Shown here: positions 738-45,716 of the stretch, in pieces
How the letters are laid out: each line of letters begins with the position of its first letter
How positions within the stretch are numbered: position 1 is the stretch's first letter
Origin: a virus
Virus record (IMG/VR): IMGVR_UViG_3300026484_000087
Location: 62,001-126,000 of that record
Length of the DNA stretch: 64,000 bases
Strand: one strand, 5' to 3'
Program-made: the position numbers and the translations under genes
The notes under the pieces: generated by a model
Seen by the model: only the letters and a program-made list of their open reading frames with translations
Told to the model about the DNA's origin: nothing
Database searches by the model: none

Positions 738-2651
738 TTATTGAAATCTGTTAAAACCTGCAGTAGCATATGGTGTTTGGTAAGAATTACCACCAGCAAA
801 TGATCTTGCAAAGTCAGCAGATTGTTGACCAATACCTGCACCAGATAAGTAATTACCAATAGCAGCAATAGAACTTTGTTCTGTAAACTGTACTTCTGGA
901 TCATATCTAGTCTCGAAACCAGCTGAAGCACATGCACTAGATAACGTTTGGATAAATTTACTAGAGAATGTAACTCTTGTAGCTTTACCAGAAATCTCTG
1001 CATTTGGAATAAGCTTGCTGATGATATCAACTTTAGTAATGAATGGATCAATACCAGAAACAGATTGTGGAACATTTGAAAGAGTCCATTTGTTAATGTT
1101 TTCACTAACTTGGTTTGGAGCACTTAATGTAGCAATTGCACTTAAGTCTAGATCTCTAATATCTCTAGATGCACCATCTTTATCTGTCCATGTACCTGTT
1201 GGAATATTAACACCATCATTAAGGAAGATCTCATTAGCTGGGAAATTATGTGGGAATGCCCCATTTGTTAACCATACAGCTGTAGATAAAATCTCTTGAG
1301 CTGCAGCATATTTCTTATCACCAACATCACTGTTAGCTGGAGCAGCAGCAACACCAAAGATTGAAGCAAAGTTACTATATGTACCATAAGCATCGATATC
1401 AATACTGAACATAGCATCTAGCGAATACATTTGTTTAATAAGACTGAATAACTCTTGAGAGTTTAGTTTAGAATCTCTTAAATCTAATGGTTCACCAAAT
1501 CCACTGCTATTATTTTCTAAGTTAGTAGAAATATTCAACTTACCAATATCGTGTAGTTGATCATTTGGTTTTGGAGCAACTGCAGCAAGCCACATATTTG
1601 GTCTAACCATAACAACTGATGAGATGATTGCCAATAAAGCATAACCTGTTGTAGGCATATCTGTATCCATAGATGTTAGAATAACATGTGGTCTAAGTCT
1701 GATCATAGATGTAGAGGCTGCTCCAGGTAATGCTTGAACAGTAAACTCTTCTTGCATAGCATCTACAAAACCTGTAGTTTTACAAACTCTTGTTCTATTG
1801 TTTTGTAGGTTAAGAGACTGAGCAACATTTCTGTTATCAATACTATTTAACTCAATTTGCCAATCAGCTCTAATTGGTTTACCTGCAGCATCCATAATTG
1901 TTGTTGGTAATAAGTTACTATCAATTTTAAGATATGCACCTGGAGCTTCTTTAATAGCTTCACTGATATTTAAATCTCTAAACTCTTTGTTAATTTTACC
2001 AATTTCTACTAAACATGCATTGTATGCAATAGAGGCAATTGGTCTTAAAGCAGCTGGACTGATGTCATTGTTGTAGTAAGGGATAACAACACCATCAACA
2101 GAGTAAAAGTTATAGTGATCACCATAAACTTTCTTAAGAGTATCTTTGATCTCGTTAAATAGTACAACGTCAATAGCATCTGATGCAACATAGATATCAT
2201 TAATTTTATTTTGATTGTAACTTCTTGCCAAGTTGTTATACTCTTGCATTACAGTTGCAGCATCAAGTGGTTTTCTACCCGTACCCTCTAATTGCATAAT
2301 GAAATAGGCAACCTTATTACTCTTAGCAATACTAACAATAACTGCACTATATGCTAAATTAGATTTAACTTCTCTATCAAGTACTGTAACTTTAGCTTGA
2401 TATCCATTACCAGCTTCAGAACTATAAATTGTTTTAAGTTCTTCACTCAACTTGTTAAGATATTCTGAACCTAACCCAGAAGCCATTGTGCTGAATTTCT
2501 TACCGCCAAATGTTAATACTGGCGTATTATCAACTACTGTCTCACTCTTTGGCATTGCACTACCTATTTGACTATTGATATCCAATTCAATTTTAGCTTT
2601 ATCATTAGCACCTGTTTCTACTTGTTCGTTGTTTCCTGTATGTACTGCCAT
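738..2651 (-). CDS. Large, probably abundant virion structural protein
   Basis: A 637-residue protein with a strong ribosome site (AAGGAGATAGT ATG) and no signal peptide. Composition is alanine, serine and asparagine rich, with a glycine/serine/glutamine-rich C-terminal tail, like a jumbo-phage virion protein. Codon choice looks like that of the sheath and tube genes, which suggests high expression. I cannot match it to a named family; a capsid, baseplate or tail-associated role are all possible. It is monocistronic, driven from the variant promoter at 2711-2745, with a 16-base palindrome in its 5' leader (2671-2686). Confidence 0.5.
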   Translation of the reverse strand: MAVHTGNNEQVETGANDKAKIELDINSQIGSAMPKSETVVDNTPVLTFGGKKFSTMASGLGSEYLNKLSEELKTIYSSEAGNGYQAKVTVLDREVKSNLAYSAVIVSIAKSNKVAYFIMQLEGTGRKPLDAATVMQEYNNLARSYNQNKINDIYVASDAIDVVLFNEIKDTLKKVYGDHYNFYSVDGVVIPYYNNDISPAALRPIASIAYNACLVEIGKINKEFRDLNISEAIKEAPGAYLKIDSNLLPTTIMDAAGKPIRADWQIELNSIDNRNVAQSLNLQNNRTRVCKTTGFVDAMQEEFTVQALPGAASTSMIRLRPHVILTSMDTDMPTTGYALLAIISSVVMVRPNMWLAAVAPKPNDQLHDIGKLNISTNLENNSSGFGEPLDLRDSKLNSQELFSLIKQMYSLDAMFSIDIDAYGTYSNFASIFGVAAAPANSDVGDKKYAAAQEILSTAVWLTNGAFPHNFPANEIFLNDGVNIPTGTWTDKDGASRDIRDLDLSAIATLSAPNQVSENINKWTLSNVPQSVSGIDPFITKVDIISKLIPNAEISGKATRVTFSSKFIQTLSSACASAGFETRYDPEVQFTEQSSIAAIGNYLSGAGIGQQSADFARSFAGGNSYQTPYATAGFNRFQ

Positions 2652-4047: not shown

Positions 4048-4847
4048 TGAACGCAATAAACAAACTGTTATCAGAGATAAAATTTCAAATACCATCTGAT
4101 ATTTTAAATTTAGCTTTTATGGATACCCAAAATTATAGAAATACTGTAACAAGTATAGATGACCAAATAATGACTGACGTTATAAGAAAAAGATTAATGG
4201 TGGATTTAAACCTATCTAGTCAAGAAACTTTAAATGTTCCATTACAATCATGTACCTTATTATATCATGATACCGTTAAGACTGCTTATCAAATACCAAA
4301 AAGTATAACTAATGGTAGGAGTATTGTATCTGTACATAATATGTTATCTGGATACCACATGCACGGCGACTCAATGCTAACAAATCATCAATTATCTGGT
4401 AGCACTATATTAGACAACAGTATAGGTTTAATGAATAGTCTAGACAATGTTAACTTAAGACAAACTTCAAGGGTGGATTTAATTGGGGAGAACACTGTAC
4501 TTATAGACATGGGAATGTTAGACAATCTTGCTGCTAATATAAGCGTAGTTGTAGAAAATGATTATAACTTAAACAACATCAATCCTAGGGCGTATGGTGC
4601 TTTAAGTCATCTGGCTGTACTTATAACCAAAGCATATATATATAATACTATGGTTGTAAAGATAAATAAGGGACAGATATATGCTGGACATGAGTTATCT
4701 ATTATAAAAGATATAGTTGATGAATATAAAGATGCCGAAGAACTTTATAGAGAATACTACAATACTGTGTGGAAAAAAATAGCGTTTATGCAAAATAACC
4801 ATAATATGGATAAATTCATAACTTCAATGTTTGGGAACGTTATATAA
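4047..4847 (+). CDS. Unknown protein, second gene of GGDEF operon
   Basis: A 266-residue soluble protein with no recognised motif. It begins by TAATG overlap with the preceding gene and ends by an identical TAATG overlap with the GGDEF gene, so all three are one translational unit. The middle contains histidine/methionine-rich and asparagine-rich stretches (around residues 95-150), and the C-terminal third is predicted helical. A structural or regulatory partner of its neighbours is possible. I do not recognise the family. Confidence 0.7.
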   Translation: MNAINKLLSEIKFQIPSDILNLAFMDTQNYRNTVTSIDDQIMTDVIRKRLMVDLNLSSQETLNVPLQSCTLLYHDTVKTAYQIPKSITNGRSIVSVHNMLSGYHMHGDSMLTNHQLSGSTILDNSIGLMNSLDNVNLRQTSRVDLIGENTVLIDMGMLDNLAANISVVVENDYNLNNINPRAYGALSHLAVLITKAYIYNTMVVKINKGQIYAGHELSIIKDIVDEYKDAEELYREYYNTVWKKIAFMQNNHNMDKFITSMFGNVI

Positions 4848-5359
4848 TGAAAAATGACCTACTTATAGAGCAGTATGAATCAGAAATAAAAAGACTTAAA
4901 GAAGAAATCCTTAAGTATAAATATGATAACCTAACAAGACTACCTTTAAGATCTGATTTCATACAGCATATGGATAATTTGCTAAATGAAGTTAAAATGT
5001 TTCATAGACATTTTATATTCATAATGATTGATGTAAACGATTTAAAAAAGATAAATACAGATTTTGGTTATGTGTATGGTGATGCCTATATAAAAAGAGT
5101 TGCTAACGATTTAATATCCACTTTCAACGAGTATAATATCTACAGAATTGGTGGTGATGAATTCTGCATGGTTAAAGTTGGAAACAATATATCACAAACT
5201 GTTGGTAAACTTAATGAGTTAAGCAATATATCATATGGTGTTGTTGAATCTAAAAAGATAAAACATTCACATCTAGATACCAAAAAAATGATAGAAATAG
5301 CAGATAGAATTATTAAACGTAAGAAAAGAAAAATCAAAAAAAGAAAGAGTGATGTTTAA
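4847..5359 (+). CDS. GGDEF-domain protein, putative diguanylate cyclase
   Basis: A 170-residue protein: a short N-terminal coiled coil (about 8-26), then a compact complete GGDEF domain. Visible landmarks are DNLTRLPLR (27-35, the DxLTxLPxR entry), the metal aspartate in MIDVNDLKKIN (D62), N70 and D79 (INTDFGYVYGD), which correspond to the GTP-contacting residues of PleD-like cyclases, and RIGGDEF (100-106). The family makes c-di-GMP from two GTP. The RxxD inhibitory site normally just before GGDEF is absent, so feedback inhibition is unlikely. The C-terminal part is short but retains SYGVV and IADRIIKRKKR, equivalent to the SxGxA and ADxALYxAK segments, then a lysine-rich tail. No sensor domain is fused. 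Activity is inferred from residue conservation. Confidence 0.85.
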   Translation: MKNDLLIEQYESEIKRLKEEILKYKYDNLTRLPLRSDFIQHMDNLLNEVKMFHRHFIFIMIDVNDLKKINTDFGYVYGDAYIKRVANDLISTFNEYNIYRIGGDEFCMVKVGNNISQTVGKLNELSNISYGVVESKKIKHSHLDTKKMIEIADRIIKRKKRKIKKRKSDV

Positions 5360-5373: not shown

Positions 5374-5415
5374 ATTAATCTTAACTATTTTATGATTAAA
5401 CAAAAGGATAAAATA

Positions 5416-8400
5416 ATGTTCGATAATATAAAAATTAAACATGATGAAAAAAAAGATATCTATACTATAAATGCAACATTTGGTGCTAGATTTAAACGTT
5501 ATATGGAAAAGAACATTCTAAACTCAAAGAGAATGAAACAGCTATTTATAACTTATGGTCCTTTCGAAATATCATTCTATGGCTTCTTTGCATTGGAGGT
5601 AAGAACTGTTCTTGTGGCTTTTAATGAATTAGGGTTTTCAAATATAAACGTTAGATTAATAACTAAAGTTATAGAAGCCATAGAAAACAATACATGGTTA
5701 GCAGATATGGATAAAGAATATAAAGATGATTTCGATTACTCTATAATTAAGGACTTACTTAAATTTTCTATACTTGAACATCAAGATGATTGGTTCAAAG
5801 AGTATAATGCAGTTAAGAGAAGAATGCATTATAGAGGAAGATTACTAGATGCTGCACCTGGTACTGGTAAAGCACTAAAATTTACAACGAAAGTATTGAC
5901 ACCAACTGGATGGACTCCTATATATAAACTTAATGTAGGTGATGATGTTATAGGGCCAGATGATACGATAAATAAAGTAACTGGAGTTTACCCACAAGGA
6001 AAGAGGGAATTATTTAGATTTAGATTTAAAGATGGTAGAACAATTGATGCTGATTCTAATCATCTATGGAGAATATTTAATAGAAATGGTAGAAAAGAAA
6101 AAGTTACCATATCTACAACTTCAGAAATAATGGATATGATGAATAAATATAGTAATAAAAATTTATACATTGAATTGTTTCAACCTGATTTTAATAAAAA
6201 ATCTAAAGATTTATTAATAGACCCGTATTTACTTGGGTATCTAATAGGTAACGGATCTTTAACAACGGATATAAAATTCTCTGCTAATGATAAATTCATA
6301 GTTGATAAAATTGATAATATTGTAAAAGATAAGAATTTTTCAATTAAGTACCTAAACAAATTTGATTATTCAATTGTAGATAATTCAATACATTGTGATA
6401 ATAGATTAAAAAACGATCTGGAAGCATATGGTTTACATGGTAAAGAATCTAACCATAAGTTTATACCTAAAGAGTATTTGGAGGCTGAGAGTTTTGACAG
6501 GTTAGAACTATTAAAAGGTTTAATGGATAGCGATGGAACTACTAATAAAGATGGTTCATTGAGTTATAGTACAACCAACATGGAACTTGCAAACAATATA
6601 ATCTATTTAGTTAGATCTATCGGTGGTATGGCATATATAGACGTTAAATATCCAACATATACTCATAACGACATAAAAAAGAATGGTTTACCAAATTATA
6701 ACATAAACATAAAAGTAAAACATCCTGATGATCTATTATCACTACCCAGAAAAAAAGATAAGGTTAAACATATAAACCAACATAACAATAATCTTAAACT
6801 CAGAATAGAAAGTATTGATAAATTGGACAAGAAATATGAAGCAGTTTGCATATCTGTCGATCATAAAGATAGGTTATTTGTAATTGAGAATTTTGTAGTA
6901 ACTCATAATACCTTCAGCTCTATAGCTACTGCAGAATTGGTTAAATCTAATAAGATATTAGTAGTATGTCCTCTTCCAGCTTTAGATAAGGTATGGGTAA
7001 GTAGTATAGTAGATACTGTATATAAAACACCACAAACTTACTATGTTGTAGGAGATAAAAAGAAAGATTACAATGGTGAACGTTATATATTATGTAACTA
7101 TGAATCTTTAGGAAAGATAGACAAAACTATTCCTTTTATAAAAGGAAAAGATACTACAATCATAGTTGATGAATCGCACAATATGAACGAAACTAATTCT
7201 AAAAGAACTACACTATTACTTAACATATGTAATGCTATAGATTCTGACAATATACTTTTATTGTCTGGTACCCCAATAAAAGCCAGACCTTTGGAAATGT
7301 TACCAATGATAGAATTATTAGATAAACGTTTTACATCTGTTATAAAACATAGATTTATAAAATTATATAAAGCTATGCCCAAGGTATTAGTATCATCTAT
7401 AAGTGAAAGATATACAACCTATAGAACTAAAATTAAAAAGGAAAGTATTAAATTAAAACCAGTTATTACAAAAGAATATCCTTTAAAATTAAAAAATGCC
7501 AAGGAATATACTCTTGATACAATAAGAGATAAAATGAAAGCTTATATAACAAAAAGAAAAGATGAGCTTACTAAAGATATGTTAAAATATAAAAAGACAT
7601 ATTATGATCTTTATAAGAAAGCCAAGGAACTGGCTTTATTTAATAAAACCATTAAAGAAAGAGAATTTAAAGAATATGAAAACAATATAAAAATAATTAT
7701 TGAAATGTATCAAAGACGTAAACTTATGGATATACCTGATAGAATAAAGTTTGCTAATAAATTTGAAAATGATATAATTAGACCACTATTAGATCCAGAA
7801 GAAAAAAAATTATTCGCTGAAGCTAAAACCATAGTTAAATATCTTAATTTAAAACTTCAAGGTGAAGTACTCGGTAATGTTGTTGGTAGAGAAAGAATAA
7901 ATTGCCACATAGACTTAGCTAATGAAATAGACTATAAAAGCATCGTTAATAGTACTTTAAATAAAACTATAGTGTTTAGCAACTATGTTGAGGTCTGTGC
8001 GTCTGCTTATGATAGTTTAAATAAAATAGGATATAAACCACTAAGGGTATATGGAGAATATACAAAACAACTTAATTCTACAGTTACTGACTTTATGGTT
8101 CCTAAAAATGATTTAAATCCATTAGTAGCCACATACAAGAGTTTATCAACTGCTGTACCGTTAATAACAGCTAATGTTATGTTATGTATCGATTTACCGT
8201 TTCGTGAATATGTATTAAATCAAGCGATAAGTAGAATACATAGATTGGGTCAAAATGAGCAAGTTTATGTACATCAAGTACAATTAGATACTGGTGATAT
8301 ACCTAATATAAACAGTAGAAATATAGATATCATAGCATGGTCTGCTGACATGGTTAGTTTAATTACTGGAGAAGAAGTACTTACTGAAGTTATAAAAAAC

Positions 8401-8532
8401 GAAGGTACTGACGAGGGAACATTAAGTGTCGAGGAATTGGCATTTATCGATACGTTTATTATAAATCTTGAAAATAAAAAAATAAAAACATTCGTAGAAG
8501 AGAAAAAAATAGAAATATATGACTTATGGTAG
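5416..8532 (+). CDS. SNF2-family helicase precursor containing an intein
   Basis: A 1038-residue precursor starting at 5416 (AAAGGATAAAATA ATG); an upstream in-frame start at 5392 is poorly placed. The host protein is a superfamily 2 SNF2-like ATPase of about 692 residues. Walker A (PGTGK-T) is interrupted by an intein after Lys152. DESH and SGTP motifs lie in the first RecA lobe, and the signature Q-A-I-S-R-I-H-R-L-G-Q, typical of SNF2 motif VI, lies in the second. A charged helical insertion separates the lobes. SNF2 proteins use ATP to translocate on duplex DNA; in phages they are linked to replication, recombination or displacing bound proteins. Without splicing the ATP site cannot form, so splicing is required for activity. 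Confidence 0.88.
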   Translation: MFDNIKIKHDEKKDIYTINATFGARFKRYMEKNILNSKRMKQLFITYGPFEISFYGFFALEVRTVLVAFNELGFSNINVRLITKVIEAIENNTWLADMDKEYKDDFDYSIIKDLLKFSILEHQDDWFKEYNAVKRRMHYRGRLLDAAPGTGKALKFTTKVLTPTGWTPIYKLNVGDDVIGPDDTINKVTGVYPQGKRELFRFRFKDGRTIDADSNHLWRIFNRNGRKEKVTISTTSEIMDMMNKYSNKNLYIELFQPDFNKKSKDLLIDPYLLGYLIGNGSLTTDIKFSANDKFIVDKIDNIVKDKNFSIKYLNKFDYSIVDNSIHCDNRLKNDLEAYGLHGKESNHKFIPKEYLEAESFDRLELLKGLMDSDGTTNKDGSLSYSTTNMELANNIIYLVRSIGGMAYIDVKYPTYTHNDIKKNGLPNYNINIKVKHPDDLLSLPRKKDKVKHINQHNNNLKLRIESIDKLDKKYEAVCISVDHKDRLFVIENFVVTHNTFSSIATAELVKSNKILVVCPLPALDKVWVSSIVDTVYKTPQTYYVVGDKKKDYNGERYILCNYESLGKIDKTIPFIKGKDTTIIVDESHNMNETNSKRTTLLLNICNAIDSDNILLLSGTPIKARPLEMLPMIELLDKRFTSVIKHRFIKLYKAMPKVLVSSISERYTTYRTKIKKESIKLKPVITKEYPLKLKNAKEYTLDTIRDKMKAYITKRKDELTKDMLKYKKTYYDLYKKAKELALFNKTIKEREFKEYENNIKIIIEMYQRRKLMDIPDRIKFANKFENDIIRPLLDPEEKKLFAEAKTIVKYLNLKLQGEVLGNVVGRERINCHIDLANEIDYKSIVNSTLNKTIVFSNYVEVCASAYDSLNKIGYKPLRVYGEYTKQLNSTVTDFMVPKNDLNPLVATYKSLSTAVPLITANVMLCIDLPFREYVLNQAISRIHRLGQNEQVYVHQVQLDTGDIPNINSRNIDIIAWSADMVSLITGEEVLTEVIKNEGTDEGTLSVEELAFIDTFIINLENKKIKTFVEEKKIEIYDLW
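5872..6909 (+). other. Class 3 (WCT) intein with degenerate LAGLIDADG endonuclease, inserted in Walker A
   Basis: The 346-codon insert begins with Ala (ALKFTTKVLTPTGW...) directly after GTGK and ends with VVTHN before Thr, which restores GTGKT. The first residue is Ala rather than Cys/Ser. The three marks of class 3 inteins are visible: Trp in block B (NHLW), Cys at the block F position (AVCISVD) and Thr before the terminal HN in block G. An internal DOD homing endonuclease shows two LAGLIDADG helices, LLGYLIGNGSL and LLKGLMDSDG. The first has Asn where the catalytic acid is expected, so DNA cleavage may be lost or reduced to nicking. Splicing chemistry follows known class 3 behaviour and is not shown by sequence alone. 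Confidence 0.85.
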
Positions 8533-12016: not shown

Positions 12017-12044
12017 ATAATAATGTTGAAAAAGAAAAAAGACT

Positions 12045-12074
12045 GTTAGTATATAGGATATCCTATATACTAAC
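12045..12074 (-). terminator. Terminator palindrome after gene 12081-12653
   Basis: A perfect 30-base inverted repeat (GTTAGTATATAGGAT and its complement). On the minus strand it is followed by AGTCTTTTTTCTTTTT, a good T-tract, just past the stop of the gene at 12081. Confidence 0.75.
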
Positions 12075-12080
12075 ATTACA

Positions 12081-12653
12081 TTATTTAATTTCGCTAATTA
12101 TAATGTCTTTTGCTAAACCCTCTTCAACAGCATGAAGAACAACTTCAATTACTGAACCTAAGTCGGTTAAGTCTAGTTGATGTGAAAAATTTTCATCATT
12201 AACTTTAAACTCCCATTTACCACTTGTAAGAGTTTTAATTATAGCTTCTTCACTTTTACCAGCTCTATCAACTACAACATTAATTCTTAAATCAGGATAT
12301 GCAATATATAATTCCGCAAGTCTACTTAATGCGGGCAATATATCTCTTAGATGTTTTGCGTTATCTAATGCAAATGCCAAAACATTATCTTTAACCATTA
12401 TAACATTAGTTATATTCAAGATGTATTTAGCAACATCATCGCTAACGGTTTCACCGTTTACTTTTAATTGCTTATTATCAATCATAGATCTAATATCAGC
12501 CATAGCTTCCATGCCTATAACCGCATGGTCTATTTCGCTTGGATCTAAACCAATGGTACGCATCATAAAGATTCTATCATATGCCTCATCGAACGTCCCA
12601 AGTGCCTGATTTATTGCTTCTCTTTTATCGTCTAATTCTAACTTTTCAACCAT
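12081..12653 (-). CDS. Unknown protein downstream of dapD-like gene
   Basis: A 190-residue acidic protein, mostly helical in the first two thirds, with a beta-like segment LRINVVVDRAG and a C-terminal helical end. No recognised motif, membrane segment or signal peptide. The start (ATG 12653) follows the dapD-like stop by eight bases, so the two are in one operon, and it ends at a strong terminator. Possible functional link to the DapD-like protein is by context only. Confidence 0.7.
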   Translation of the reverse strand: MVEKLELDDKREAINQALGTFDEAYDRIFMMRTIGLDPSEIDHAVIGMEAMADIRSMIDNKQLKVNGETVSDDVAKYILNITNVIMVKDNVLAFALDNAKHLRDILPALSRLAELYIAYPDLRINVVVDRAGKSEEAIIKTLTSGKWEFKVNDENFSHQLDLTDLGSVIEVVLHAVEEGLAKDIIISEIK

Positions 12654-12661
12654 ATTATATC

Positions 12662-13861
12662 CTAATGTAAATCAGCGTTAAGCTTTACTTCTCTTGTACT
12701 TCTTTTAACAAGTATTGTACCAGTCATGCTATCCATTCTAAAATGTGCCCCATTAATGCCTGATAAACTTATTGCTTTAACTACACCACTAACCACATTA
12801 ACGCCGTTAACCTCAGAAAGCTCTGATGCTGCTTCATCACTAATACTTACCTTAGTACCTGGAAGTATTGCTAAACCACCGTCAATAATACATGCGTCCC
12901 CTAATGGAATACCGCAAACTGAATTTGCACCAAGCAGACAATTCTCACCGATACTAATTGGATCGCCATCTGTTCCACTTAATACTCCAAGTATAGAGGC
13001 ACCACCACCAATGTCTGAACCTGCACCAACAATAGCAGAACTACTAATTCTACCCTCTACCATAACTGGCCCTTGTGTACCAGCATTAAAGTTGATATAT
13101 GAAGCACCTGGCATAACCACAGTACCCGATGCTAACTGTGCACCAAATCTAACTTTAGATGTTTCAAGGATTCTAACATTTTCATCAGGAATAATATATT
13201 GTAAGAATCTTGGAAGCTTATCAACATACTCAACTGCTGGATAGTTACCTGTTGCTTTCATAGCTATCTCATTATTCTTAAGATAATCTAATTCAATAGC
13301 AGTATTACCAACCCATGCAACTCTCTCTAATAAACCGAAGATACCATCAAGATTGATCTGTCTAATGTCTGCTCTATTTAAAGATAACATAAATAGTTTT
13401 AAATATGCTGTTTCAACACATGTAGGTGCGACATCTTCAAAGATGAATACTAATCTATAAGGATTACCTATCTCCTCAACTGGTGTATTTGTAAGAGTTT
13501 CTCTTATAACCATAAGTGTCTGGATATTTTTATGTTGTTCACCATGTGCTTCTTCCAAGAATGGTTCAAACATAGCTAATGCCGCATTTACAAAATCTAA
13601 AGTAATTACCACTGATATCTCATCTTTACTTAAATCTAGATCAATTCCTGTTGCTAATGCTGCTTGCATAAAAATTGCTGCAGTTCCAAAGTTCTCAACT
13701 ACATTAACTACTGGGAATACTGCAGTAAGTACTTTATCTCTGTTTACTTGCCCTGGTTGACATAATGCAATACCAAATGCTTTTGGTGCCTTATAAATCT
13801 CATCTTCTTGAATACTTTTAACCAACTCGTTAAACGCTTCTTTTGTTTCTACTTTTTCCAT
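12662..13861 (-). CDS. dapD: Tetrahydrodipicolinate N-succinyltransferase (DapD), long form
   Basis: A 399-residue protein. The C-terminal part (about 230-345) is a left-handed beta-helix with hexapeptide repeats: RFGAQLASGTVVMPGASYIN, then MVEGRISSSAIVGAGSDIGG, GASILGVLSGTDGDPISIGE, NCLLGANSVCGIPLGD. These blocks are the hallmark of long-type DapD; the Glu in MVEGRIS is the position implicated in catalysis in the mycobacterial enzyme. The C-terminus (AHFRMDS, KRSTREVKLNADLH) resembles Campylobacterota DapD in my recollection. The family transfers succinyl from succinyl-CoA to tetrahydrodipicolinate on the way to meso-diaminopimelate and lysine. Length is full and no residue block is missing, so it looks functional. 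It lies amid phage genes on the phage coding pattern. Start is ATG 13861 after AAAGGACAAAG. Confidence 0.88.
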   Translation of the reverse strand: MEKVETKEAFNELVKSIQEDEIYKAPKAFGIALCQPGQVNRDKVLTAVFPVVNVVENFGTAAIFMQAALATGIDLDLSKDEISVVITLDFVNAALAMFEPFLEEAHGEQHKNIQTLMVIRETLTNTPVEEIGNPYRLVFIFEDVAPTCVETAYLKLFMLSLNRADIRQINLDGIFGLLERVAWVGNTAIELDYLKNNEIAMKATGNYPAVEYVDKLPRFLQYIIPDENVRILETSKVRFGAQLASGTVVMPGASYINFNAGTQGPVMVEGRISSSAIVGAGSDIGGGASILGVLSGTDGDPISIGENCLLGANSVCGIPLGDACIIDGGLAILPGTKVSISDEAASELSEVNGVNVVSGVVKAISLSGINGAHFRMDSMTGTILVKRSTREVKLNADLH

Positions 13862-13909
13862 ATCTTTGTCCTTTATGTTATTTTCATTTAAATTATTTGT
13901 ATAAAATTT

Positions 13910-14422
13910 TTATACACCGTTTACTAGATCCATGCTTTTCTTCATGATAACATCATCGCTTACTCCTTTTATGTTTTCTAAACCTACATCTAATTCAGTT
14001 ATAAGTCTATTTGCGTACATAGTAGATTGAAATGTTAAAGAATCACCATTATATTTTTTAAACATACTATCTATATCTTTTTGATCTATCTCGGCCTTAG
14101 CTAATAAATCTGGTTCTTTCATCATTATAGCACGCAACAATGCTGGCATAGTTACTGAATTTAACTTGTCTTTATCAACCAGATCCAATGTCATCTTATT
14201 AAACGCTCTTAACTTTAAATCATAAGACTCATGTGCTATTTTAAGATATGTCATGCGATTCATATTCTTATTAGTTATGGCCATTAATTTATTAAAACTT
14301 CTAATTATTTTTTTAAGTTCTCTTTTAATTAAAAGCTTCTTATCTTGCTGATAAGGGTGGAATAATAAGAAGAGGGCTGATACCATCATCAGCTCTCTTT
14401 CTGTAAGTACATATTTATTCAT
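13910..14422 (-). CDS. Unknown helical protein upstream of dapD
   Basis: A 170-residue basic helical protein. ATG 14422 with GGGAGAAGACA upstream is preferred over a longer frame starting at 14461, and it overlaps the preceding stop by eight bases. No motif recognised. It lies between another unknown gene and dapD in the operon driven from P3. Confidence 0.65.
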   Translation of the reverse strand: MNKYVLTERELMMVSALFLLFHPYQQDKKLLIKRELKKIIRSFNKLMAITNKNMNRMTYLKIAHESYDLKLRAFNKMTLDLVDKDKLNSVTMPALLRAIMMKEPDLLAKAEIDQKDIDSMFKKYNGDSLTFQSTMYANRLITELDVGLENIKGVSDDVIMKKSMDLVNGV

Positions 14423-14882
14423 TGTCTTCTCCCATATTATCTTTAAAACTAGCAAAATCATTTTCTAACACATTCAATTCATAAATGTAATCGTCTGCAC
14501 AAATATCCAGAAACTCACATATGTCTATCTTTATCTTAGTTAACTTCATACTTCTATAGATATTGAAATAATCAATCCATACACTTATTGGATATTTTGT
14601 TCTAGTACTAGCCAGGTTAAGTATATTCTGTGTTTGATTTATTTTTAATTGTAGATCAAATATTTTCATATCAGTTATAAGTAATTCGTTACTTTCTAAA
14701 CTAACAGCATTAAGCATAGCATAGTCGTCAAGACTACCTACACTTATTTCATCATTAACTATTTGTGGGAAATCAAAAGTAGTAAACTCATCTATCTGAC
14801 CTTCACCTATCATATCAGATATAACTTCTTCTCTTTTAACGAATAAGAATTCTATCTCATTCTCCATGTTGTCTATATTCAT
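14415..14882 (-). CDS. Unknown protein, first gene of dapD operon
   Basis: A 155-residue acidic protein, mostly helical in its second half (ITDMKIFDLQLKINQTQNIL onward). No known motif. Start at 14882 after TAAGGAATAAAA. It is the first cistron behind promoter P3, and overlaps the next gene, so expression is coupled. Function unknown. Confidence 0.65.
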   Translation of the reverse strand: MNIDNMENEIEFLFVKREEVISDMIGEGQIDEFTTFDFPQIVNDEISVGSLDDYAMLNAVSLESNELLITDMKIFDLQLKINQTQNILNLASTRTKYPISVWIDYFNIYRSMKLTKIKIDICEFLDICADDYIYELNVLENDFASFKDNMGEDNE

Positions 14883-14965: not shown

Positions 14966-15009
14966 TATAACCCGACCTACACCAAAAGTCGGGTTATAAT
15001 ATAATTTTT
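14966..15009. terminator. Hairpin terminator in the 14.9-15.3 kb noncoding region
   Basis: TATAACCCGAC pairs with GTCGGGTTATA (11 bp, 11-base loop, 14966-14998), followed on the plus strand by ATAATTTTTC. It is more GC rich than its surroundings. It could terminate the minus operon whose last gene ends at 15337, or act on a plus-strand transcript. Confidence 0.5.
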
Positions 15010-22691: not shown

Positions 22692-23810
22692 ATGATCTAT
22701 ACGAGTTATTTAGGAAATTTAAAAAATATACCAGACGAATTAACAAAAGTATCTATAATGAGATTTACACCAGAGTGGGCTGCAAAATATGTGGATGATG
22801 TTTTATTAAGTCTAGCACCAGCTGAGTCTACTTTAATAAAGTATCAAAATGGAGAGATAGATAAAGAACAATATATAAGAGAATTTAATGCTGTACTTAA
22901 GAAAGTAAGACCAAATAAACTTAAAAAAGAATTGGATGGAAAGGTTTTATTATGTACATGTAAGCTAGGCAAGTTCTGTCATAGACATTTAGTAGCAGAT
23001 TATCTTAGAGACAACAATATTGCAGTTAGAGAGTTGCCGATTAAAGACAGTCTCAAAGTGATAAATGTAGAAGTTACAGATCTATTATCTGTTAAACTAT
23101 GTAGAGATAATCCTGATAAGATATATGTGTTTGGAGATAACACTATACGTAAGGGTAAAAAAGGTCAAGCTATAATTAGGGATGAACCAAACGCCTTTGG
23201 TATAATAACTAAAAGATATCCTAGTAATAACTACGGATCATTTTTAAGCGATAATAAAGATGATAAATTATTAGTCCTTAAAGATTTGGTTAAGTTAAGG
23301 GATTTGGCTTATAATGGTAAAACTATAGTGTTCCCAAAAGATGGGTTAGGAACAGGTTTAGCTAATTTAGGATACCATGCTCCATACTTAAGTATAATGT
23401 TATATACGTTTGTAGAGGATAATTTCATGAGGTACCTTAAAACTGATAAAGATAGAAAGAGAATAATTATAGCTGGTGGAAGAGATTTCAAAGATTATGA
23501 TTTACTTTATAAGTCTGTTTATAAACTGGTAAAAGAACATGATCTTTATAATCCCATAATCTATACTGGTGATGCAAGGGGTGCAGATAAACTTGGTAAT
23601 AAGTTTGCTAAGAAAAACAAATTAGAATTAGTTAAGTTTCCAGCTGATTGGGATAAACATGGTAAGTCTGCTGGTTTTATTAGGAATGTTGAGATGGCCA
23701 ATGATGCAGATTACCTGGTAGCTTTTTGGGATGGTAAATCAAAGGGAACCAAGCATATGATAGATACTGCAAAAAAGAAAAAAATAAAAGTTAAGGTAGT
23801 GAGGTATTAA
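22692..23810 (+). CDS. Three-module protein: DUF488-like, FGDN domain, SLOG (DUF2493)
   Basis: A 372-residue protein starting after AGGAATTTAAA. Module 1 (about 1-115) resembles DUF488, with LLCTCKLGKFCHRHLVADYL (87-106) carrying the Cys/His cluster. Module 2 (about 122-245) has KIYVFGDN (143-150), RDEPNAFGI (163-171) and KDGLGTGLANL (216-226), a conserved phage domain of unknown activity. Module 3 (about 256-372) is a DprA-like Rossmann SLOG domain of the DUF2493/YspA group: IIIAGGRDF, YTGDARGADKLG, FPADWDKHGKSAGFIRN, LVAFWDGKSKGT. SLOG domains bind nucleotides or their derivatives, often in conflict systems. The combined role may be sensing or modifying a nucleotide signal; that is inference. 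It ends at a shared terminator. Confidence 0.8.
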   Translation: MIYTSYLGNLKNIPDELTKVSIMRFTPEWAAKYVDDVLLSLAPAESTLIKYQNGEIDKEQYIREFNAVLKKVRPNKLKKELDGKVLLCTCKLGKFCHRHLVADYLRDNNIAVRELPIKDSLKVINVEVTDLLSVKLCRDNPDKIYVFGDNTIRKGKKGQAIIRDEPNAFGIITKRYPSNNYGSFLSDNKDDKLLVLKDLVKLRDLAYNGKTIVFPKDGLGTGLANLGYHAPYLSIMLYTFVEDNFMRYLKTDKDRKRIIIAGGRDFKDYDLLYKSVYKLVKEHDLYNPIIYTGDARGADKLGNKFAKKNKLELVKFPADWDKHGKSAGFIRNVEMANDADYLVAFWDGKSKGTKHMIDTAKKKKIKVKVVRY

Positions 23811-31145: not shown

Positions 31146-31478
31146 ATGGGTAAAATCGTAGTTGTAAATTCTAAAAAAGAATTGGATGAGGTTATTAGTA
31201 ATAATGATAGGGTCTTAGTTGATTTCTGGGCACCATGGTGTGGTCCATGCAGAATGATAGCACCTATTATGGATGAGTTAGCTGCAGAAGATAATGGTAT
31301 TACTGTAGTTAAAATTAATACAGATGAAAATGGAGACTTATGTACAGATCTTGGTATTAGAAGTATACCGACAGTATTTAAATATGTGGATGGTAAACAG
31401 ATAGATACGCAAATTGGTGCTACGAGTAAAGACAAGTTTATTGAAGGTTTAGTTAAGACAGAAAAAGGAAAGAAATAA
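31146..31478 (+). CDS. trxA: Thioredoxin
   Basis: A 110-residue thioredoxin of standard length with active site WAPWCGPC (28-35; C32, C35) and the cis-proline segment RSIPTVF. It starts after AAAGGATATAAT. It would supply reducing equivalents to the phage ribonucleotide reductase through the C-terminal CxxC of NrdA, or act as a processivity or folding partner as in T7. It shares a one-base TAATG overlap with the next gene. Confidence 0.95.
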   Translation: MGKIVVVNSKKELDEVISNNDRVLVDFWAPWCGPCRMIAPIMDELAAEDNGITVVKINTDENGDLCTDLGIRSIPTVFKYVDGKQIDTQIGATSKDKFIEGLVKTEKGKK

Positions 31479-34972: not shown

Positions 34973-36013
34973 TTACTCTATATAGATTATTAACTTATCT
35001 AAACCATCAACTTTACCAACGACATTAAAGTCATCGCACATTTTATAAAATACATCTTCCTCGCCCTCTTCATTATTTATAACGATTTCAGTTACAGACA
35101 AATTACCATTGCGTATTAAGGGTAATCTAGTTTTTGCATCAGTTGCAGTAAATACAGTGTATGCTATTTCATTTATATCTAAGTATCTGATGATATCCTC
35201 ATAACTTCTTTCAGTATGAATATAATCCATATATTCTACTTTAAGTCCGATGTCAAGATATCTTTGTCTGTCATAACCGTATTCATAAACGGTACCCATT
35301 AGACCATTTCTGTTATTATGGTAATAGTTAAGTCTATTTATAAAAGCTGGAGTATACGTCGCCTCTATATCAGTGATGCTTGCGTGTGGATTATTCTCTG
35401 GCTGATCAAAGTATGAGAAGTCATGTAAGATATAGCTTTCCTGTACATTGAAACGCTTCTCTATTTGTTCAACAGTTATTTCCAATGCCTTATTGGCTTT
35501 AGTATCCCCAGAGATAACTACCATTGCACCATTAGTGTTACCGACAGCAAATCCAAAACTTTTAACATGATGAACTCCTTCTATTGCCACAAGGAAGTTG
35601 TCCAGTTCAGTGTGTCCGAGAGTTTTAAACTCAGCTATCTGAACCATATTATAAATAGGTGCATTGACATACTTACCGTTTACCATTTCTTCATTCTTAG
35701 GTAGGAATAAAGCCAACTCAGCACCGATATCCTTAGCATATCTAACTATAGTTGTTTTACCTAGTACAAAATATCTATAATATAGCAGTGATTTTAAACT
35801 ACCAACATGATCATCATCAAGATGCGTTATTACAACAAAATCCATTTCTTCTAATATCTCTGGCTTATGTTCCTTAAGATGTGGAAATACGTTATATCCA
35901 CAATCAAATAGCATATTAGTTCCAGCACACGTTATATAAAAACTACTATTTATTAATTCAGTGTCAAATGCACCACCACTACCGATAACTTCTACCTTTA
36001 AATTTTTACTCAT
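34973..36013 (-). CDS. Metallo-beta-lactamase-fold hydrolase (RNase Z / Apyc1-like)
   Basis: A 346-residue protein; ATG 36013 follows AAGGAGTTGAAC. MBL landmarks are visible: GSGGAF (11-16), LFDCGYNVFP (36-45), VITHLDDDHVGS (61-72) and VVISGDTKAN with a following histidine/aspartate segment. Canonical HxHxDH reads H-x-D-x-D-H here, an Asp replacing the second His, which may alter metal binding. The N-terminal layout is like RNase Z and the phage anti-Pycsar nuclease Apyc1, which hydrolyses cyclic nucleotides to disarm host signalling. Substrate is not determined by sequence. It sits in the long accessory operon with other unknown small proteins. Confidence 0.75.
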   Translation of the reverse strand: MSKNLKVEVIGSGGAFDTELINSSFYITCAGTNMLFDCGYNVFPHLKEHKPEILEEMDFVVITHLDDDHVGSLKSLLYYRYFVLGKTTIVRYAKDIGAELALFLPKNEEMVNGKYVNAPIYNMVQIAEFKTLGHTELDNFLVAIEGVHHVKSFGFAVGNTNGAMVVISGDTKANKALEITVEQIEKRFNVQESYILHDFSYFDQPENNPHASITDIEATYTPAFINRLNYYHNNRNGLMGTVYEYGYDRQRYLDIGLKVEYMDYIHTERSYEDIIRYLDINEIAYTVFTATDAKTRLPLIRNGNLSVTEIVINNEEGEEDVFYKMCDDFNVVGKVDGLDKLIIYIE

Positions 36014-36023
36014 GTTCAACTCC

Positions 36024-36635
36024 TTATACATCTAAATTGCTTAGCAAATTATTTATTAATAAACTCTCATACGTATCCATTTTATCATTTACTGGGAATA
36101 ATATCATGGAACCATCTGGATTTAAGTAAGTCATACTGTGGTCAGTTATATCTCCTGAACCATCATAAGTAAATTCGTTTATATACTTTACGTTCCCTTC
36201 AGAATCTTCTTGAAACATAATTAGATAAAATTTTTCACCCCAACCTCTATCGTACCAGTCTTCACCCATATGTTTTTCTAAATCTATAGAGAAATCTTCA
36301 GTAGTTATCTCTATTTTACTGCCTTTCCAGTTAAACTCATCTGTTATAAGAACATATGTTTTTAGTTCATCTCTTATAGGTGCCTTACCTTCTAATCTTG
36401 TGTGGTTATCTAGGAATGCTTCACCTACGCCATATTTATCATAAATCTCTTTAAACATATCACCGTCATCATCAGATACTCCACCATCATCGGCAATGTA
36501 ATTCGTATAGTCTACCTCACCATTATCTTTCTTGTTTAACTCAACAAGCATTGTTCTGTTAATATCACTAACCTTTATAACCATTATATTTTGGTCATCT
36601 TTATCTGTAAATACATTTTCTATGTTTCTACCCAT
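36024..36635 (-). CDS. Unknown acidic protein, first gene of accessory operon
   Basis: A 203-residue, strongly acidic protein (DDGGVSDDDGDMF) with a beta-rich core. Start 36635 after AAAAGGATATACA. No recognised motif. It is the first cistron behind promoter P5. Highly acidic phage proteins can mimic DNA or bind basic host factors, but there is no specific evidence here. Confidence 0.6.
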   Translation of the reverse strand: MGRNIENVFTDKDDQNIMVIKVSDINRTMLVELNKKDNGEVDYTNYIADDGGVSDDDGDMFKEIYDKYGVGEAFLDNHTRLEGKAPIRDELKTYVLITDEFNWKGSKIEITTEDFSIDLEKHMGEDWYDRGWGEKFYLIMFQEDSEGNVKYINEFTYDGSGDITDHSMTYLNPDGSMILFPVNDKMDTYESLLINNLLSNLDV

Positions 36636-44669: not shown

Positions 44670-45716
44670 TTAGAATACCAAACCATCATCATCTGCACTA
44701 TTATCTGCAGTAACATCATCTACAGTAGATTGATTTAACTTTTCATTAATACTATCTACTCTGGTTTTAAGTTCAAATTCAATAGCACTAAATGAGTTAG
44801 CATAACTAACAACATGTATTGGAAATTGACCTCTGAATGTGTTTATAACATTGCTATTTTCCGTTGTACCAAATTTATGGTGAAATAACTCTATACCAAT
44901 ATCAGATGCAACATCTTTAACAGTTATAGTTCTACCAACAGTTGGCGTAAGATGATCTGGAAGATTTACTTCCTTAGGGAATACATTCAATCCATAAAGA
45001 CCTGGTTTAATACCAATCGTTTTATATACAGATTGATCTATAAATGCAGCCATATCTTTTTGATCTAAAGATGTATTTTGTCCAGATAAGAACATAGATA
45101 ATACAGAGATATTTTTAAAGATTTCTCTATCTATACTTTCTAACTTTTCTATAGAGTTTTCACCTATACCTTTAGCATTATCATTATAAATTATGCTGAG
45201 TGGTTTCTTAGTAGCTTTAGCAATAGCATTAAAACTAGCAATGGTATTTAAGGTATTTATTGTAGAAAGACCATTCGAGCTATCTCCAACAAGCACTGCA
45301 ATAACTGGTAAGTCTCTTTCTAAAAGATTCTTAACAACCATAGGAGATATAACGCTACCAGTACCACCAGAAGCAGAAGCTATAACTACATAATATGTAC
45401 TTATCTTACTAACATTAAATTTCTTTTTATCTATAAATTCTTTTACAGATTCAACTATGTCAGAAGAGTTTTCTTTACGCTCACCACCCGAACCAAGGAT
45501 CTCTTTACTAACACCCGTAGCTTTTATAAGATGAAAGTTTTCATCATCATGACTAAAGTTTTTGATATTAGATAATGAACTATCTATATATTCAACTCTA
45601 ATATTACTAAATCCATCACCAAGCTCTTCTAACGGATCTCTAAGATTACCAGCAATAGTAATTCCACATCCACCACATCCAATTACAACTATTTCACCTT
45701 CAGTTTTAATTGCCAT
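44670..45716 (-). CDS. Tubulin/FtsZ-like GTPase (PhuZ-type candidate)
   Basis: A 348-residue protein. N-terminal VIGCGGCGIT (11-20) matches the first glycine loop of the tubulin/FtsZ fold, and IASASGGTGSVISP (112-125) is the tubulin signature (GGTGS). IYNDN at 176-180 lies where these proteins contact the guanine. The C-terminus ends in a flexible acidic tail (DDVTADNSADDDGLVF), as in PhuZ and eukaryotic tubulins. In phiKZ-like phages PhuZ makes a spindle that centres the phage nucleus. It is co-transcribed with an unknown gene just upstream. No other nucleus genes are recognisable in this window. Divergence makes exact subfamily uncertain. Confidence 0.85.
   Translation of the reverse strand: MAIKTEGEIVVIGCGGCGITIAGNLRDPLEELGDGFSNIRVEYIDSSLSNIKNFSHDDENFHLIKATGVSKEILGSGGERKENSSDIVESVKEFIDKKKFNVSKISTYYVVIASASGGTGSVISPMVVKNLLERDLPVIAVLVGDSSNGLSTINTLNTIASFNAIAKATKKPLSIIYNDNAKGIGENSIEKLESIDREIFKNISVLSMFLSGQNTSLDQKDMAAFIDQSVYKTIGIKPGLYGLNVFPKEVNLPDHLTPTVGRTITVKDVASDIGIELFHHKFGTTENSNVINTFRGQFPIHVVSYANSFSAIEFELKTRVDSINEKLNQSTVDDVTADNSADDDGLVF

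Follow-up and report, generated by a model that had tools for sequence, protein, structure and literature searches.

Gene organization at the dapD locus

The window, that is, the whole stretch of 64,000 nucleotides that was analysed, corresponds to bases 62001-126000 of a virus record of 206,244 bases, whose single dapD gene lies mid-record, at 74.7 kb. The gene is read on the minus strand from position 13861 to 12662 of the window, from ATG to TAG, with 399 codons and no internal stop, and it is the third of four minus-strand genes that run from 14882 to 12081. The features of this region, in the order in which they are read, are as follows.

14966-14998, minus strand: terminator-like hairpin ahead of the run (13 pairs)
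14415-14882, minus strand: open reading frame for a 155-aa protein, first of the four-gene run; no Pfam or PHROG match at E ≤ 0.01
14393-14376, minus strand: weaker terminator-like hairpin within the run, upstream of dapD (7 pairs)
13910-14461, minus strand: open reading frame for a 183-aa protein, 48 bases upstream of dapD; no Pfam or PHROG match at E ≤ 0.01
13865-13874, minus strand: purine-rich, ribosome-site-like stretch AAAGGACAAA with AAAGGA, which leads dapD as AAAGGACAAAGAT-ATG
12662-13861, minus strand: dapD, long-form tetrahydrodipicolinate N-succinyltransferase, 399 aa (open reading frame, Pfam, PDB match, active-site mapping and structure model)
12081-12653, minus strand: open reading frame for a 190-aa protein, starting 8 bases past the dapD stop; no Pfam or PHROG match at E ≤ 0.01
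12044-12075, minus strand: terminator-like hairpin past the end of the run (14 pairs, 4 of them G-C, followed by a T-rich tail)

Terminator-like sites in the scanned region numbered 12, against 2.6 ± 1.5 in shuffles, whereas promoter-like sites did not exceed chance (81 against 100.1 ± 10.9). An earlier reading made from the letters of this DNA (the sequence-only reading) had given the coordinates of the gene exactly and had described it as embedded in a phage operon. The gene proves to lie on the minus strand, and the layout, a four-gene run with its hairpins, agrees with an operon, but the promoter-like sites add nothing to that description. The 190-aa gene, which had no tblastn match at E ≤ 0.01 in 50,697 phage records, is probably co-transcribed with dapD. 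Further downstream, beyond one more gene, we found an ATPase of phrog_2376, a short gene, a dUTPase and a DHH phosphoesterase.

Domains, active site and predicted fold of the phage DapD

The product had been named a full-length, long-form DapD, and this is borne out by its Pfam domains and by its match to a solved structure. THDPS_N (residues 8-176, E 1.5e-53), THDPS_M (residues 178-218) and Hexapep_2 (residues 301-332) all score above their curated cut-offs and follow one another across the whole protein in the same order as in the long Campylobacterota form. The closest solved relative is the Campylobacter jejuni DapD Cj1605c (2rij), which matches residues 4-399 with an E-value of 1.6e-124 and 52% identity, and with which the phage protein shares its three-domain architecture and the mapped active-site residues; it differs from Cj1605c in being encoded by a phage, in standing on a single long branch and in carrying the replacements N180R, P188A and F216L. 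The NCBIfam models TIGR03535 and TIGR03536 gave 248.4 and 235.6 bits, respectively, and their cut-offs of 441.5 and 518.45 were not reached. Since the five full-length Campylobacterota DapDs that we scanned also fell below both cut-offs (5/5), while a P. aeruginosa-type copy passed TIGR03536, these cut-offs do not cover the long form of the Campylobacterota. The DapDs of Pseudomonas aeruginosa and Mycobacterium tuberculosis (3r5a-d and 3fsx/3fsy; TIGR03536 and TIGR03535, respectively) have the C-terminal catalytic half in common with the phage protein, along with the CoA, succinate and acceptor residues, but they match it only from about residue 130 onward, the P. aeruginosa type with about 42% identity over 270 residues. 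Judged on sequence, the match to DapD is far beyond chance.

An AlphaFold monomer model built from an 80-row alignment (mean pLDDT 93.9, pTM 0.91) has the left-handed beta-helix catalytic domain and the overall DapD fold. In a fold search against the PDB, 2rij was the best match (TMq 0.92) and the top 24 matches were all long-type DapDs, while among predicted viral structures no fold match was found at E ≤ 0.001. An earlier model from 11 rows, in which the beta-helix was poor (pLDDT 69.8), was set aside. Sequence, predicted fold and active site together make it very probable that the phage encodes a genuine DapD.

PMC3281039 names the P. aeruginosa DapD residues that hold succinate, CoA and 2-aminopimelate, and we carried these over to the phage protein with a numbering offset of three, which fits most of them. 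Asp168, Asn209, Glu221, Arg223, Gly238 and Ser241 are identical to D214, N257, E269, R271, G286 and S289 of the phage, as are Gly287, Lys289, Lys304, Arg317 and Ser320 to G335, K337, K362, R375 and S378. Ala226, which binds through its main chain, corresponds to phage Ser274, and Glu279 to Asp327, and both Ser and Asp are found at these positions in 105 of the 105 host sequences; Arg318, a main-chain contact, falls on Met376 at a variable position. Three of the identical residues are not fixed in the hosts, 11 of the 105 differing at K337, 5 at K362 and 7 at S378. Under the three-residue offset, Arg181, Arg193, Asn264 and Asn280 as given in the paper do not land on residues of those kinds. The phage residues R230 and R238, which are Arg in all 105 hosts, are, by their position in the alignment, the likely counterparts of the acceptor-carboxylate residues Arg181 and Arg193.

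The hosts in this comparison are 105 distinct Campylobacterota DapDs aligned with the phage protein, 13 of the 118 rows having been excluded (two phage-record matches, five divergent full-length sequences, four N-half sequences and two repeat fetches). The phage DapD retains 82 of the 85 columns that are invariant in these hosts, and the three that it has lost, N180R, P188A and F216L, all fall within the THDPS_M stretch (178-218). Where at least 95% of the hosts agree, it retains 108 of 116 columns (93.1%), five being altered besides the three invariant ones. When each host was left out in turn as a control, the three lowest retained 91.5-93.2%, with a host median of 100%, so the phage DapD still falls within the family, at its divergent limit.

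When we simulated neutral decay by random base changes down to 60% protein identity, none of the 500 runs remained free of stops (mean 11.2, minimum 3). The dapD gene has a GC3 of 0.188, where 147 phage genes average 0.202 (sd 0.033), while its total GC is high, at the 99th percentile of phage genes, and its codon score lies at the 13th percentile. The gene is thus phage-like at third positions, though not by every measure. The sequence-only reading had named two observations that would speak against it, namely that the succinyl-CoA or substrate residues are absent on alignment, and that the gene is degrading. As far as an alignment can tell, the mapped residues are present, and the intact frame, the phage-like GC3 and the decay simulation all describe a gene that is not degrading.

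The phage and its kinship with Campylobacterota

The record contains 221 open reading frames of at least 60 residues and 185 of at least 110. Of the latter, 173 were scanned with Pfam and three (NrdA, NrdB and LigA) with NCBIfam only, and 9 lay outside the scan. The Pfam matches include the PhiKZ major capsid protein (6.3e-132), the phiKZ internal head protein, the PhiKZ vertex-binding protein, chimallin, tubulin, a divergent family B DNA polymerase and a divergent DnaB-like ATPase. A PHROGs scan of part of the record's proteins, taking the best 25 of 43 and the best 25 of 42 families, gave the nuclear shell protein phrog_4795 (2.8e-40), the PhuZ family phrog_4733 (4.2e-49), a tail sheath and RNA polymerase beta subunits. 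Within the window, the chimallin-like nuclear shell protein is encoded at 738-2651 (minus strand; PF25677, 4e-12) and the PhuZ-like tubulin at 44670-45716 (minus strand; Pfam Tubulin, 4.6e-11); the PHROGs nuclear shell family and phrog_4733 are each matched by one protein of the window. Matches to the tail sheath occur in 264 of 50,697 phage records, and the best 15, at 29-35% identity, all come from records above 200 kb, which we take to be phiKZ relatives. With these phiKZ, chimallin, PhuZ and RNA polymerase families, dapD sits in a nucleus-forming, phiKZ-like type of jumbo phage, as judged by its genes. Chimalliviridae, the family name given to phiKZ-like nucleus-forming jumbo phages in PMC11797060, share with this phage chimallin, the PhuZ tubulin, the PhiKZ capsid, the divergent DNA polymerase and the phage RNA polymerase families; unlike phiKZ-like phages, it carries dapD and an NrdA that is nearer to that of Campylobacterota than to the phage rows listed.

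Among 397 Campylobacterota genomes, an even draw from a larger group, 383 match the phage DapD, with a best identity of 61%, some of them over the N-terminal half only, and 14 are without a match. In four Campylobacterota genomes (L086, 1474-2163, minus strand; L087, 1501-2190, plus strand; L088; L089) the sole match covers residues 4 to 235 or so and lies in a free frame. A search with PF14790 in 21 chosen genomes returned 11 with open frames of this N-half type, of 233-246 codons.

In a tree of 85 rows (113 rows minus the two phage-record outgroup rows and 26 near-copies), the phage sequence joins a ten-row host clade with support of 90/89 and an end branch of 1.1. After removal of a further 16 fast or divergent rows, the resulting 69-row tree gave the same ten-row join, with support of 95/88 and an end branch of 1.21, the bootstrap having not fully settled. 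These trees, built on Campylobacterota rows and the phage sequence, are provisionally rooted. A basal placement of the phage, obtained in the 113-row tree with two short-type phage-record rows as outgroup, was rejected, the join being flagged as a meeting of long branches. The sequence-only reading had called for a phylogeny that would place the gene inside a host clade or in a phage clade; we see neither a recent pick-up from a host nor a demonstrable phage clade, and in their place a single long phage branch among Campylobacterota rows. The safest statement that these alignments allow is that the phage dapD would be an old or fast-changing copy from Campylobacterota.

Compared with Campylobacterota NrdA, that of the phage reaches 46-51% identity in the best segment (61 of 61 genomes), and compared with phage rows 33.6-36.7% (the best 10 of at least 5000). 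The kinship of dapD and NrdA suggests a Campylobacterota host and, together with chimallin, hints at a nucleus-forming phage of Campylobacterota. The link to this host is not an exclusive one, because the NrdA genome search covered Campylobacterota only and the scan of all genomes for dapD used Campylobacter-biased patterns. Open-licence literature, searched for phages of this nucleus-forming type that infect Campylobacter or other Campylobacterota, yielded in the parts available a mention of Campylobacterota in a reference list only; the phage dapD suggests that such phages reach this group.

Other viral DapDs proved scarce. Three scans of IMG/VR, with the protein, a two-row alignment and an eleven-row alignment, gave no confirmed DapD relative, and those with NrdA and the DHH protein gave no phage relative covering the dapD region; such scans depend on a handful of short peptides matched exactly and may omit near copies of the source record, so that absence is not proven by them. 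Two of the 50,697 phage records match the phage DapD, with 58-68% of the protein aligned at 42-43% identity, and both were rejected as phage DapDs. In the unverified record of Pseudomonas phage Y1 (OQ572403), the DapD (L002, 9752-10783, plus strand) is letter for letter the P. aeruginosa DapD in the PDB, and its gene is probably host DNA; in MT835995, a faecal scaffold that is likewise unverified, dapD has 73% GC. The "lysine biosynthesis" protein of the PaBG paper is RimK-related. A record of 109,992 bases (G398), many of whose proteins are 50-90% identical to those of our phage, is collinear with it from window base 31,478 to about record base 197,800 and ends short of the dapD locus. The more distant G399 (179,975 bases) and G400 had no dapD match, and a search of four related phage records at E ≤ 1 gave none, these records perhaps being fragments; the search method used on these records recovers dapD in its source record. 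No description of a phage dapD or DapD was found in the available parts of the open-licence literature on phage DapD or lysine genes. Among the virus records examined, no other well-supported one was found to carry dapD.

Possible roles of the phage DapD

Phage metabolic genes usually concern nucleotides, photosynthesis or carbon flow, and a DapD with an intact active site would add to these the succinylase branch, which feeds lysine and peptidoglycan. Here a host-derived metabolic gene lies inside a genuine phage genome, as expected of an auxiliary metabolic gene, and the simplest reading of the sequence data, one that we consider reasonably probable, is that it would encode a working one-step DapD that raises flux towards diaminopimelate (DAP) and lysine. 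A jumbo phage of the nucleus-forming type would have acquired the gene from a Campylobacterota cell and retained it by selection, and the product would be catalytically competent. This DapD would carry out the first committed step of the succinylase branch, in which tetrahydrodipicolinate receives a succinyl group from succinyl-CoA, and the host enzymes DapC, DapE and DapF would take the product on to L,L-DAP, meso-DAP and lysine. The phage enzyme could add capacity at one step or substitute for the host enzyme after host expression is shut off, and what runs short would be the lysine needed for protein, or else the DAP needed for the wall. In proposing this we infer enzymatic activity, expression, a Campylobacterota host and a limitation by lysine or DAP.

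No other enzyme of the DAP/lysine route was found in the 173 Pfam-scanned phage proteins (51 family rows at E ≤ 1e-5, plus those of a further ten proteins, the rows of dapD itself apart), and the flux would therefore depend on host enzymes. Lysine makes up 9.3% of the phage proteome, a value obtained with no control set, which fits a demand for lysine and proves nothing. A phage-encoded DAP decarboxylase of the LysA type ("DAPDC") is in print, according to PMC9992855; it belongs to the same DAP/lysine route, but it acts at the last step, whereas DapD acts at the succinylase step, and it is an unrelated protein with an alanine racemase fold. A phage DapD would also indicate a testable bottleneck in cells under a nucleus-forming phage. 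A wider claim, that the phage carries DapD to sustain the synthesis of both wall and lysine precursors once expression of the host genome is cut off, seems to us rather unlikely; if it were true, such phages must maintain envelope growth or lysine supply through a long, compartmented infection, and DapD would be the step that fails first.

The length of the phage branch (1.1-1.2 changes per site), the three replacements at host-invariant positions and the lack of other DAP genes among the scanned phage proteins could also be taken as signs that the DapD scaffold now acylates or succinylates another amine for the phage, be it a sugar, a polyamine, a modified base or a protein. An enzyme that had turned to another acceptor would be expected to show it in the acceptor pocket, yet those side chains for acceptor, succinate and CoA that were mapped are retained, as are all but three of the 85 invariant columns, and no fold other than that of the long-type DapDs appears among the 24 best PDB matches. 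Repurposing as an acyltransferase had been offered as the alternative in the sequence-only reading, and given the conserved acceptor residues we hold it to be improbable. It is an improbable reading as well that the phage DapD has a non-catalytic, regulatory part, joining host trimers or binding succinyl-CoA or tetrahydrodipicolinate and so altering host metabolism, for its catalytic residue set is intact and we know of no feedback site in DapD. What speaks for such a part is that positions 180, 188 and 216 are all altered within the one THDPS_M stretch, and that mixed trimers of host and phage subunits are conceivable, since the active sites are located between the subunits of the trimer, as stated in PMC3281039.

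The gene could, in principle, be a passenger from the host with no current use, and its occurrence in only one phage record among those searched would agree with this. However, its frame is intact after a protein divergence of about 40%, at which every neutral run had acquired at least three stops, the host-invariant columns are nearly all in place and GC3 fits the phage, so that we find a mere passenger decidedly improbable. Phage records can contain pieces of host DNA, as the probable case of phage Y1 illustrates, but an assembly artefact or stretch of host DNA would be extremely improbable for a gene that lies far inside a 206-kb record, among phage genes, with a phage-like GC3 and with no match better than 61% among the 397 sampled genomes. 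Both host contamination and decay are unlikely because of this GC3 together with the single long branch among host DapDs. A working DapD that adds to DAP and lysine flux is the reading that we retain.

Several other genes of the window deserve mention. A protein of 170 aa (4847-5359, plus strand), whose GGDEF motif lies at residue 102, appears to be a stand-alone diguanylate-cyclase-like gene product; one protein of the window matches Pfam GGDEF (5.5e-17), and this is presumably the same one. A helicase (5392-8532, plus strand) has its Walker A motif (GTGK / TFSS) interrupted by an insert that starts with Ala and ends in VVTHN and that, judged by its motifs, is intein-like. A metallo-beta-lactamase-fold protein (34973-36031, minus strand), 90% and 82% identical to its counterparts in two related phage records, bears a weak likeness to the anti-Pycsar protein Apyc1 (1.6e-8, below the cut-off). 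A three-part protein at 22692-23810 (plus strand) combines DUF488-N3a, DUF7831 and a YspA-type SLOG domain.
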